Shown here: positions 1,465-29,137 of the stretch, one piece after another
Position numbering within the stretch: position 1 is the stretch's first letter
How the letters are laid out: the number at the start of each line of letters is the position of its first letter
Virus record (IMG/VR): IMGVR_UViG_3300022074_000228
Location: 1-30,922 of that record
Direction: 5' to 3' (one strand)
Source: a virus
Length of the DNA stretch: 30,922 nt
Made by a program: the position numbers and the translations under genes
The notes under the pieces: model-generated
What the model was told of the DNA's origin: nothing
Databases searched by the model: none
Seen by the model: only the letters and a program-made list of their open reading frames with translations

Positions 1465-2046
1465 ATGCCCAAGATAAAATTTCCAAGTTCTAGAACATTA
1501 AACCAATCCGTTACTACTAACGGAGTTAGTTATAAGTGGGATGGGCGTAAGTTTAAAAAACTTGCGATCAGTACCCTGGAAGCTTCTAATCTTACCGGAT
1601 TAGAAGCTCAATTAACTTCTAAGCTTGGTGACGAGACCGGAATGCCAGATGCTGTAATAACTGTAAGTACAGCAGGAAGCAATGTATATAAATTTACAGG
1701 AGACGGGTTTCCTTCGGAATCAGGTAACAACCCTGATATGTATTTTGAAAGAGGCAAAACCTATTGTATCCACAACTCATCTTATTCATCTCATCCATTA
1801 GCAATTAGAGTCTCTAATGGAGGTTCAGCATATACATCTGGAGTAACAGGAGCTAGTAGTGCTAAGGTATCATTTACAGTTCCTATGGATGCTCCTGATT
1901 CTCTAGTATATCAATGTACCAATCACTCAGCAATGGTGGGTAACATTTATGTTACAGGTAAGGCTATTAAAGGCTATGCACTTGAAGTTGTAGCCTCTTT
2001 GCCTGGCTCTCCAGATGCTAATACAATCTATTTCGTAACAGGATAA
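1465..2046 (+). CDS. Tail-region structural protein with cupredoxin-like domain
   Basis: This 193-residue protein has three parts. The N-terminus (about 1-60) looks like phage fibre sequence, with a YKWDGRKFKKL strand. A middle domain (about 63-165) follows the cupredoxin pattern: GDGF, a DMYFERGKTYCI strand, SSHPLAIRV, a VSFTVP strand and finally YQCTNHSAMVGNIYV. His110, Cys151, His154 and Met157 would be the four type-1 copper ligands, with Cys-x2-His-x2-Met spacing as in amicyanin. A short C-terminal segment (SLPGSPDANTIYFVTG) again looks like a fibre or adhesin joint. The gene lies first behind a late promoter in a block of probable fibre genes, so a virion role is likely. The domain is seen by eye; metal binding is inferred. 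A related domain recurs at 4687-5046. Confidence 0.65.
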   Translation: MPKIKFPSSRTLNQSVTTNGVSYKWDGRKFKKLAISTLEASNLTGLEAQLTSKLGDETGMPDAVITVSTAGSNVYKFTGDGFPSESGNNPDMYFERGKTYCIHNSSYSSHPLAIRVSNGGSAYTSGVTGASSAKVSFTVPMDAPDSLVYQCTNHSAMVGNIYVTGKAIKGYALEVVASLPGSPDANTIYFVTG

Positions 2047-4288: not shown

Positions 4289-4687
4289 ATGGCAGTTCCA
4301 TCATATTCCTTTTTTAGCGGTACAGGAAATCGCCCATGGAGTGATACATTAATTGGCATTGATGTAGGGAATATGTATGTTTCAGATACTATTAAAGCAT
4401 CAATAACGATTAGAAAACAAATTCATGCAAAATATAGAAATGCTAATAAAACTTGGGTAGACTTAGATGCTGTAAAAGATGATAAACCAAATCTAGGATT
4501 TATTCGGCCACTATTTAGTACAACCGCTGAACACGGAGCAGCGCCCGAAGGAGGAGGAGGAGGAGGTGGGGGATCTGCTACTCGTAATTTAAAAATAGGA
4601 AGTACAGCAATAAACAGTATATATTTAGGAAGCTCTCAGTTTACACACGTATATATTGGTAGTACTTTAATCTGGAGTCAATCATAA
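4289..4687 (+). CDS. Adhesin-like tail protein with octaglycine linker
   Basis: The product has 132 residues in two parts joined by eight consecutive glycines (about residues 88-95). The N-terminal part (1-87) contains a predicted beta domain with KASITIRKQIHAKYR and LGFIRPLFS. The C-terminal 35 residues contain a repeat of the type x-IYLGS-x-x-F-T-x-VYIGS-x-LIW, a strand pair seen at the tips of many phage tail proteins. Glycine-rich segments in T4-family adhesins such as gp38 are linked to receptor specificity, but this protein is not a clear gp38 relative. It shares its TAATG junction with the downstream cupredoxin-like gene. A virion tip or adhesin role is inference. Confidence 0.55.
   Translation: MAVPSYSFFSGTGNRPWSDTLIGIDVGNMYVSDTIKASITIRKQIHAKYRNANKTWVDLDAVKDDKPNLGFIRPLFSTTAEHGAAPEGGGGGGGGSATRNLKIGSTAINSIYLGSSQFTHVYIGSTLIWSQS
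4550..4573 (+). repeat. GGN trinucleotide run encoding eight glycines
   Basis: Five GGA codons in a row are followed by GGT, GGG and GGA, giving eight in-frame glycines between the two parts of the adhesin-like protein. The repeat could change length by slippage in steps of one residue without breaking the frame. Confidence 0.85.
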
Positions 4688-5046
4688 TGGCAACTCAAAC
4701 TATTTTTTATGAAGGGTATGATGTAGAAGTAAAGGCAGGGTCAGGTGTTTATGTACTTAAGGGCTGGGATACTAACGGCTCTTTTGGAGACACTAATAAT
4801 AAGACTATTAATATGGCTGCGAACTCTGTTATTAAATTTAAAATACTAAATACAACCGGACATCCATTTTGGATAAAAACATCGAATTCTACAGGAACCA
4901 GTAATGCTGTAACAGGCTCGACTGTATTTGCTAACACTGGTAGAACTACTGATTATATTCTATTTGCTCCTACATCTGCGGGAACTTATTATTATAACTG
5001 CGAATATCATTCATCTATGGCAGGCCAAATAGTAGTAGCATCTTAA
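4687..5046 (+). CDS. Small cupredoxin-like tail-region protein
   Basis: This 119-residue protein is almost entirely one cupredoxin-like domain: a GWDTNGSFG opening, a central strand SVIKFKILNTTGHPFWIKT, and the closing strand YYYNCEYHSSMAGQIVV. His59, Cys105, His108 and Met111 have the order and Cys-x2-His-x2-Met spacing of a type-1 copper site. No signal peptide is present, which fits a virion component assembled in the cytoplasm rather than an exported redox protein. It closes the fibre block, directly before a late promoter. The pattern is shared with the gene at 1465-2046, but the sequences differ enough that a recent duplication is unlikely. Fold and ligands are read by eye; metal occupancy is not known. 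Confidence 0.65.
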   Translation: MATQTIFYEGYDVEVKAGSGVYVLKGWDTNGSFGDTNNKTINMAANSVIKFKILNTTGHPFWIKTSNSTGTSNAVTGSTVFANTGRTTDYILFAPTSAGTYYYNCEYHSSMAGQIVVAS

Positions 5047-11310: not shown

Positions 11311-11835
11311 ATGGTTTTAGGAGTTGATGACTTCAAAGCAAAGTTAAGAGGTGGTGGCGCTAGACCGAATCTGTTCAAAGCGACTATTAACTTCCCAGCA
11401 TATGCTGCAGGAGATACAGAGCTAACTTCATTTATGTGTGAAGCTGCTCAATTGCCCGGTTCAACGACCGGCATGATCGAGGTTCCGTTTAGAGGTCGCA
11501 GACTTAAGTTGTCTGGTGACCGCACATTCGAGCCATGGACTATTACAGTTATTAATGATACAAATATGGCTGTAAGAGATTCTATGGAACGTTGGATGAA
11601 TGGAATTAATTCTCATACAACAAACACAGGTAGAGCTGATCCACTAGAATATGAATCAGATCTATTAGTAGACCAACTAGATAAATCTGGTGGTATTATT
11701 AAGCAATATGTGTTTAGAGGCTGTTTCCCAACAGTAGTTTCACCGATTGATTTGAGCTATACAGCTGAAAATGAAATCGAAAGATTCACTGTTGAGTTCC
11801 AGATCCAGTATTGGGAATCTAACACTACCACTTAA
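11311..11835 (+). CDS. 19: Tail tube protein gp19
   Basis: The 174-residue protein matches the T4 gp19 tube subunit (163 residues): FKAKLRGGGARPNLFKATINFP, then CEAAQLPGSTTGMIEVPFRGRRLKLSGDRTFEPW, a WTITVINDTNMAVRDSMERWM segment and the C-terminal YTAENEIERFTVEFQIQYWE. Hexamers stack to form the rigid inner tube through which DNA passes. It has its own late promoter and a strong ribosome site, fitting high expression. A hairpin with a T tract follows the gene at 11854. Confidence 0.93.
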   Translation: MVLGVDDFKAKLRGGGARPNLFKATINFPAYAAGDTELTSFMCEAAQLPGSTTGMIEVPFRGRRLKLSGDRTFEPWTITVINDTNMAVRDSMERWMNGINSHTTNTGRADPLEYESDLLVDQLDKSGGIIKQYVFRGCFPTVVSPIDLSYTAENEIERFTVEFQIQYWESNTTT

Positions 11836-18449: not shown

Positions 18450-18995
18450 ATGGTTACATTAAATCCTAGTGCTAAAGTAAATTCATCTATTACATCGCAC
18501 TCATCAGATTTAAATAATGTGAATATGCTGCAGCCTAATTTATTTAGGTTGGTAGTAGATCGTGAGAATTATCCTAATTTAGAGTTTTTTGCTACCGGAA
18601 TAAACCATCCTTCTGTTGATGCAGCACCGGCTGAACTACAGTATCAAAAAGTTTCTAGGATTAATTTTGTTGCTGATAAATTAAACTATGGTGATTTGAA
18701 CGTAAATTTAGTACTAGATGAGAATATGAACTCATATATCGAAATGCATAATTGGATAACACGAATGGTTCAAGAGGATTACAGAGATCCTTTAGGTAGA
18801 GACTCTAAGTTGCCACCTATTGAATCTGATATTACAGTTCATGTATTAAGCAGCCACAACAATACTCTTAGAAAAATTAAATACATTGACTGTATTCCAA
18901 CAACATTAGGAGCAGTTGACTTTGAAGCACAGAATGCAGAAGGATATATAACATATCCGATCTCATTTAGATTTAACTATTTTGAAATTACTTGA
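18450..18995 (+). CDS. Tail-tube-fold structural protein (gp19-like; baseplate or tail completion role)
   Basis: The 181-residue protein shows the tube-family pattern: NLFRLVVDRENYPNLEFFATGINHPSV, then QYQKVSRINFVADKLNYGDLNVNLVLDENMNSYIEMHNWI, and a C-terminal beta hairpin with FEAQNAEGYITYPISFRFNYFEI. T4 gp19, gp48 and gp54 share this fold, so it may be a tube initiator or cap at the baseplate. In marine T4-like phages the gene before uvsY is often called gene 3 (tail completion), and this protein could be what carries that label. It is behind its own late promoter, consistent with a virion part. The exact counterpart is not settled. Confidence 0.65.
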   Translation: MVTLNPSAKVNSSITSHSSDLNNVNMLQPNLFRLVVDRENYPNLEFFATGINHPSVDAAPAELQYQKVSRINFVADKLNYGDLNVNLVLDENMNSYIEMHNWITRMVQEDYRDPLGRDSKLPPIESDITVHVLSSHNNTLRKIKYIDCIPTTLGAVDFEAQNAEGYITYPISFRFNYFEIT

Positions 18996-28362: not shown

Positions 28363-28458
28363 AGCTATACCTCACGGATATAGCTAATTCATTATATATA
28401 GTATTGCGATGCGGAATAATCCGGTCGCAATATAATCTTGCTTGCTCAAAAGGAGATA
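28363..28458 (+). promoter_or_regulatory. Structured leader with ROSE-type RNA thermometer before hsp20
   Basis: The 100-base gap before hsp20 folds into three stems. Stem I: AGCTATA (28363-28369) with TATAGCT (28379-28385). Stem II: TATTGCGA (28402-28409) with TCGCAATA (28425-28432), enclosing CGGA-ATAA-TCCG. Stem III: ATCTT-G-CT (28435-28442) with AGGAGAT (28451-28457), leaving G28440 bulged, and so hiding the ribosome site. The TTGCT opposite AGGA with a bulged G is the signature of ROSE thermometers, known before small heat shock genes of Alpha- and Gammaproteobacteria. A second TTGCT at 28442-28446 offers an alternative register. No clear promoter lies in the gap; AATAAATA at 28353 is one base off the late consensus. 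Confidence 0.72.
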
Positions 28459-28461
28459 ACA

Positions 28462-28932
28462 ATGACAGGCTTACAAACACTATTCCCGCGGTCATCTTTT
28501 GTTGGTTTTGACCATCTGTTCAACGAATTAGAGTGGACAGCTAAACATGCCCAAGACCATTATCCCCCACATAATATTATTAAAGCTGGAGATCAAGAAT
28601 ACTTGATTGAACTAGCTATTGCTGGGTTTACAAAGGATGAAATATCTGTAGAAGTTAAAGATAGAACCTTGACTGTTACAGGGGAACACGTCTCTAAAGG
28701 TAGAGAGTTTATCCATCGTGGCATTTCGACAAAGAAATTTAAACGAACCTTTAGGCTGTCCGAACATGTAAATGTAAACGGAGCAGATATTCAGGACGGC
28801 ATTCTGGCAATTGAATTGCAGTATGTTATCCCAGAAGATCAGCGTCCTCGTAAAATCAATATTGGTCAAACGAGGAAACAAAATGACACAAGCAATACTA
28901 GCAGCCCACAGCTACTCAACGAGGGCAATTGA
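28462..28932 (+). CDS. hsp20: Small heat shock protein Hsp20 (IbpA-like, class A)
   Basis: I use ATG 28462 (MTGLQTLFPRSSFVGFD) since an upstream in-frame TTG at 28438 would consume the ribosome site. The 156-residue protein has a short N-terminal arm, the alpha-crystallin domain from about residue 35 (YPPHNIIKAGDQEYLIELAIAGF) through the EFIHRGISTKKFKRTFRL beta region to the VIPEDQRPRKINI ending, and a flexible tail. The sequence style is that of class A proteobacterial IbpA/HspA holdases, which bind unfolding proteins. Hsp20 genes are common in T4-like marine phages. The ROSE-type leader suggests heat-controlled translation. It overlaps the following gene by 50 bases. Confidence 0.92.
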   Translation: MTGLQTLFPRSSFVGFDHLFNELEWTAKHAQDHYPPHNIIKAGDQEYLIELAIAGFTKDEISVEVKDRTLTVTGEHVSKGREFIHRGISTKKFKRTFRLSEHVNVNGADIQDGILAIELQYVIPEDQRPRKINIGQTRKQNDTSNTSSPQLLNEGN

Positions 28933-29137
28933 AACTATCATAGAAGCACTAAGATCTCTTATTCAGTATAGAGCGCATCGTAAAGCGATCCGTGAAACTG
29001 AAAAAGAGTTATCCAAATTATCAGATAATGACTTAGCTGATATTGGTCTTTGCAGAGGCGACATATATTCAATCGCACGGTCAGTAGATACAATAGCAAA
29101 TACAAAAGCTAATAATAATCTGAAAGGTTGGGTTTAA
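28883..29137 (+). CDS. DUF1127 domain protein
   Basis: ATG 28883 follows AGGA at the right distance; upstream in-frame starts lie deep inside hsp20. The 84-residue protein is basic and helical. Its C-terminal half, YRAHRKAIRETEKELSKLSDNDLADIGLCRGDIYSIARS, is the DUF1127 motif (arginine-rich helix, then LSDxxLxDIGLxRxDI). In Alphaproteobacteria, short DUF1127 proteins are linked to small-RNA turnover and to phosphate or stress physiology. I infer a similar RNA-binding or regulatory role here. The gene overlaps hsp20 by 50 bases and the next gene by one, so the operon is tightly coupled. Confidence 0.8.
   Translation: MTQAILAAHSYSTRAIETIIEALRSLIQYRAHRKAIRETEKELSKLSDNDLADIGLCRGDIYSIARSVDTIANTKANNNLKGWV

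Follow-up and report, generated by a model that had tools for sequence, protein, structure and literature searches.

A cupredoxin-like domain with a putative type-1 copper ligand set in a tail-region protein of a T4-like phage

Gene content of the tail region

The 30.9-kb virus record analysed here (IMG/VR record IMGVR_UViG_3300022074_000228; the window is the whole stretch of 30,922 nucleotides) is that of a marine T4-like myovirus. The features discussed are collected in Table 1. Downstream of ORF1 lie genes of the head-tail adaptor, head closure (neck), sheath stabiliser, terminase, sheath, tube, portal and major capsid proteins, and the major capsid protein is nearest to those of Phage C48C1 (67%), Methylophilales phage Melnitz (61%) and Pelagibacter phage HTVC008M (61%).

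Table 1. Positions of ORF1, its parts and the neighbouring genes in the window
Feature	Position	Strand	Evidence
ORF1, tail-region protein with cupredoxin domain, 193 aa	1465..2046	+	ORF call, purifying selection
ORF1 N-terminal part, residues 1-62; beta segments 15-34 and helix 46-55 predicted at low confidence	1465..1650	+	AlphaFold2 (block pLDDT about 35-51)
Cupredoxin-like domain, ORF1 residues 63-164	1651..1956	+	phrog_677, AlphaFold2, Foldseek against PDB, PDB profile search
His110 codon, predicted first copper ligand, HP motif	1792..1794	+	Residue check, conservation
Cys151 codon, predicted thiolate ligand, Y-x-C	1915..1917	+	Residue check, conservation
His154 codon, predicted second histidine ligand	1924..1926	+	Residue check, conservation
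Met157 codon, predicted axial ligand	1933..1935	+	Residue check, conservation; Met-to-Gln in one relative (L184)
ORF1 C-terminal tail, residues 165-193	1957..2043	+	pLDDT mostly <50
ORF between the two cupredoxin genes, 670 aa	2275..4287	+	Position
ORF with TAATG overlap with ORF2, 132 aa	4289..4687	+	ORF call, relative L100
ORF2, second stand-alone cupredoxin domain, 119 aa, with H59, C105, H108 and M111	4687..5046	+	Pfam (sub-threshold), AlphaFold2, Foldseek, PDB profiles

A preliminary description of this DNA had assigned His110, Cys151, His154 and Met157 of ORF1 to a type-1 copper ligand set in a tail-fibre-like protein, and both the open reading frame and the four residues proved exact on checking. 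The best family match of ORF1 is to positions 306-409 of the 412-position phrog_677 profile, the C-terminal domain of the gp9 connector (E 2.3e-32), and related copies are found in proximal tail fibres, which makes the label tail-fibre-like a reasonable one; PHROGs names the family connector or tail fibre. ORF1 was considered as a candidate for gp9 itself and rejected, because it lacks the T4_gp9_10_N domain (PF07880) and has 193 aa. Outside the cupredoxin-like domain, ORF1 has only weak matches, of residues 4-33 to phrog_17970 and of residues 181-192 to Phage_tail_C (PF24243, E 0.006, below the cut-off), and its N-terminal part is presumed to serve for attachment or as a coil. ORF1 is under purifying selection (dN of 0.08-0.09 versus dS >1 for the domain, in comparison with relatives at 79-87% protein identity).

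The second cupredoxin gene, ORF2, was missed by the preliminary description. The 132-aa product of the overlapping gene is probably its partner, because sequences similar to the two are fused in a single open reading frame of a relative (L100:4578-5351), which joins a segment like the 132-aa protein to an ORF2-like domain. Searches of Pfam, PHROGs and NCBIfam and of 50,697 phage records give no match for the 670-aa protein encoded between the two cupredoxin genes, and from its position it is probably a fibre or other structural protein.

Predicted fold and relation to copper proteins

AlphaFold2 predicts a confident all-beta domain for residues 61-165 of ORF1 (block mean pLDDT about 80-93) and for ORF2, which is the better predicted of the two (mean pLDDT 88.9, pTM 0.84). 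In Foldseek comparisons of both models with the PDB, copper proteins of the cupredoxin fold rank top, with moderate TM-scores (target-normalised, about 0.5-0.63 for plastocyanin and for the Nitrosopumilus purple cupredoxin 5fc9), and in a viral library the fold recurs in gp9 connectors of cyanophages, in proximal tail fibres and in further tail proteins. As far as the predicted fold goes, the model gives no sign that the four residues lie far apart.

A PDB search with the single sequence of ORF1 yielded nothing useful, and a profile built from relatives was needed. Such profiles find blue-copper and multicopper proteins of the cupredoxin fold, namely copper nitrite reductase, auracyanin, plastocyanin, amicyanin, pseudoazurin and rusticyanin (E 1e-5 to 1e-3), although some of the alignments put the first ligand His two residues off. 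None of the curated copper-protein models of Pfam and NCBIfam is reached by ORF1 alone, which matches neither Copper-bind nor Cupredoxin_1 nor the amicyanin equivalog model TIGR02657. ORF2 remains below the Pfam gathering thresholds (18.7 bits versus a cut-off of 21.2 for Copper-bind, 20.5 versus 27 for Cupredoxin_1) and below the equivalog cut-offs for amicyanin (19.4 bits versus 110.2) and plastocyanin petE (TIGR02656, 16.0 bits versus 87.85).

Membership of the cupredoxin superfamily was judged by a Greek-key beta-sandwich, which the models predict, and by the type-1 ligands His, Cys, His and Met occurring in this order with a C-terminal Cys-x(n)-His-x(n)-Met loop, which is present. The PDB alignment bears out the amicyanin-type Cys-x2-His-x2-Met spacing that had been proposed for ORF1, the loop ligands of amicyanin being C92, H95 and M98 in the numbering of that alignment. 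The value of 41 given for the interval from the first His to the Cys holds as a difference in residue number but not as a count of the residues in between, which is 40. The first His of amicyanin is His53, and the corresponding difference in residue number is 39. ORF1 thus resembles amicyanin, plastocyanin, rusticyanin and auracyanin in predicted fold and in its H...C-x2-H-x2-M pattern, with the loop length of amicyanin, but it differs from these blue-copper proteins in having no evident signal peptide, in having Pro and not Asn next to the first ligand His, and in being only about 20% identical to them. Small cupredoxins usually have Asn at this position, and multicopper oxidases are known in which Pro follows the type-1 His. 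Whereas blue-copper cupredoxins serve electron-transfer chains, the present domain sits in tail proteins. Taken together, the predicted fold, the profile matches and the ligand conservation described below support the assignment of the ORF1 domain to the cupredoxin type, with a complete putative type-1 copper ligand set in a structural protein of the tail region.

Distribution of the domain

The closest known system is the C-terminal domain of the gp9 connector of marine cyanophages (phrog_677, 'baseplate wedge tail fiber protein connector'; Kyanoviridae), which shares with ORF1 the ligand set and the location in a tail-structure gene. Cyanophage gp9 has an N-terminal T4_gp9_10_N domain that ORF1 lacks, and public annotation of gp9 names no cupredoxin. 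In phage ACG-2014a, for example, T4_gp9_10_N is found at the N-terminus of gp9, and the cupredoxin domain covers roughly 305-413 of the open reading frame. The gp9 form of the domain is matched by 343 phage records, of which 334 are named as cyanobacterial phages, many of them close isolates.

Other phages carry the domain elsewhere. The putative proximal tail fibre of P-SSM2 has two copies, and in the podoviruses P-GSP1 and P-SCSP2 the domain lies close to the N-terminal end of a hypothetical protein. In S-SCSM1, gp9 (264 aa) is without the domain, and the sole copy belongs to the proximal long tail fibre, which is annotated as a virion protein; mass spectrometry detected 45 virion proteins in PMC9602691. 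A strict rule by which the domain occurs either in gp9 or else in the proximal fibre fits S-SCSM1 but was rejected, as RB11-B carries both. The near relatives of the window phage, C48C1 and Melnitz, have one intact copy each, and no copy was found in HTVC008M.

Cellular relatives of the domain are found in marine Flavobacteria (often in lipoproteins), OCS116/PS1 alphaproteobacteria, Neomarinimicrobiota and others. They have the same ligands and are mostly 44-64% identical to the query used, but many differ in having lipoprotein-like N-termini and some in having CHRD domains, which are present in the two flavobacterial lipoproteins tested. Alphaproteobacterial (OCS116/PS1/Rhodobiaceae) and similar sequences (L175, L178, L182, L183, L189, L193, L194, L198) contain two tandem copies of the domain behind a common N-terminus.

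Conservation of the ligand set

His, Cys, His and Met are all kept in 241 of the 245 distinct complete domain copies, which form 93 clusters at 70% identity. Pattern scans were made with closer sequence sets, an alignment of 15 diverse sequences being too diverse for this purpose. Of the other four, one has Gln for Met, two have none of the ligands in place and one looks like an artefact. A copy reading DCHM at the ligand positions (L158 9269-9667) most likely results from an error of assembly or reading frame, and it was left out of the ligand variants. Some of the 245 copies were found by means of peptide patterns containing the ligands, which biases the count towards ligand retention; therefore, the phage records obtained by tblastn with the whole domain were examined separately. 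Among these, the set is intact in all copies listed (including that of S-TIM5) but one, the fibre copy of S-B05, in which H is replaced by F, C by A and the second H by V, while Met is kept and the fold remains recognisable (E 7e-25 to 2e-26). RB11-B has a ligand-poor fibre copy of the S-B05 type plus an intact copy in gp9.

None of the four ligands varies in the alignment on which the structure prediction of ORF1 was based. The most conserved of the 105 columns are the four ligands (each 97-98% weighted), the proline of the HP motif, the tyrosine of Y-x-C and one further tyrosine. In an acidobacterial relative (L184:4842-5321), Gln replaces the axial Met; stellacyanin likewise has Gln in place of this ligand. 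The Cys is the single one in 225 of 247 domain copies, so an intradomain disulfide does not lie behind its conservation, and a disulfide role of Cys151 was rejected.

Possible roles of the putative copper site

ORF1 is probably, though far from certainly, an accessory protein of the virion tail, connector-like or short-fibre-like, with an intact type-1 copper site that is metallated after lysis and stabilises a joint. Phage proteins of this kind would fold in the cytosol, since no signal peptide is evident, and the ORF1 protein would be synthesised and assembled in copper-free form inside the host cytoplasm. Cytosolic free copper is kept extremely low, so copper would be acquired after lysis, whether in sea water or at the envelope of a host. 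The bound copper may then tie the ligand loops together and stabilise the domain where it sits at a joint of the tail fibre or baseplate, a role that appears the most economical because many relatives place the domain at a connector or near the N-terminus of a fibre.

An alternative that we regard as unlikely is that the copper site functions in host attachment, either by docking on a surface or periplasmic partner (a copper transporter, a porin or a redox protein) or by offering copper as bait. The strict retention of the ligands and the presence of the domain on tail proteins are consistent with attachment, as is its location at the end of the protein in 147 of the 284 viral open reading frames counted. 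In gp9 and several proximal fibres, however, the domain is at a joint or near the N-terminus of the fibre and away from the distal tip, which tells mildly against direct receptor binding, and the domain is shared by phages with different hosts and by bacterial lipoproteins. A precedent for attachment through metals is the proposal that iron-binding HxH motifs of tail fibres exploit metal uptake (Ferrojan/Trojan horse; Alteromonas phage R22Y; PMC11705849), which shares with the present case the idea of metal on a tail but differs in metal, ligands and fold, and is not homologous evidence. The link to iron suggested in the preliminary description as one option for receptor binding was not upheld, because H-C-H-M is a copper set and there are no iron-type ligands.

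It is rather improbable that the domain is a plain beta-sandwich module, structural or adhesive, with inherited cupredoxin residues and no metal. The copies of S-B05 and RB11-B, along with two in which the whole ligand set is gone (L147:4191-4553, reading GDDC, and L148:7322-8164, reading LAVA), keep the fold, so the fold does not need metal. Such copies are rare, however, and their losses are joint, whereas elsewhere H, C, H and M outrank nearly all core residues in conservation; moreover, if it were not a ligand, a solitary Cys that never varies would be difficult to account for in an extracellular protein. Because the ligands vanish jointly while the fold stays, a metal site is favoured over a pure folding constraint, and the near all-or-none pattern of the ligands together with the lone Cys points to a working metal site.

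Quite doubtful, too, is a more active function of the metal, in which the connector or fibre domain of marine tailed phages would be copper-free in the cytosol and copper-loaded only outside, and loading would switch the tail from its assembly form to an infection-ready one or tune attachment, with abundant ocean phages constituting a pool of copper ligands.

Very improbable is an electron-transfer protein carried by the phage as an auxiliary metabolic gene and acting in the infected cell. Cyanophages do carry petE (PMC3037559), and its plastocyanin is also a blue-copper fold in a phage genome, but it is a stand-alone electron carrier derived from the host, whereas the present domain is tail-structural, being fused to or beside tail proteins, in connectors and fibres, and has no evident signal peptide. 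A petE-type gene was rejected on this gene context and on the NCBIfam scores, which miss the plastocyanin and amicyanin cut-offs by far.

The motif is short and the protein is rich in Ser, Gly and Thr, but an accidental pattern in a low-complexity fibre protein has next to no probability, as H-x(35-50)-C-x2-H-x2-M appears in one of 20,000 shuffled copies of ORF1, is expected in 0.014 open reading frames of the window versus the two found (both in the tail region), is conserved over the 93 clusters and is accompanied by fold and profile matches; a chance origin of the ligand pattern is excluded.

The preferred reading of ORF1 as a tail accessory protein with a joint-stabilising copper site describes a known fold in an unexpected place, so far unrecognised on tail connectors and fibres, rather than a novel type of system. 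The literature searched yielded no account of cupredoxins in phage tails, most subscription papers and preprints being outside that search. The spread of the domain over many cultured marine cyanobacterial viruses suggests a capacity for copper binding on the tails of many ocean phages. If the site does bind copper, a blue-copper domain would be a standard tail part in many cultured marine cyanophages and their uncultured relatives, a set of mutable residues would be available for studying whether the attachment and stability of phages in the ocean depend on metal, and virus particles would have a route into copper chemistry.

Other features of the sequences

Copies of the domain that keep the fold with most or all ligands lost (L147, L148, L308, L324, L331) constitute natural metal-free controls. 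A sister subfamily ending in YxC..H..MGN is found in marine phages, including Methylophilales phage Melnitz (L169:6658-6966, L326, L325), and its member L169 has C-x2-H-x3-M spacing. The window also encodes two differing tail-tube paralogues (gp19-like, phrog_45) at 11311-11835 and 18450-18995, and a DUF1127 protein (PF06568, E 1e-8) at 28811-29137, directly after an Hsp20 gene (28438-28932).
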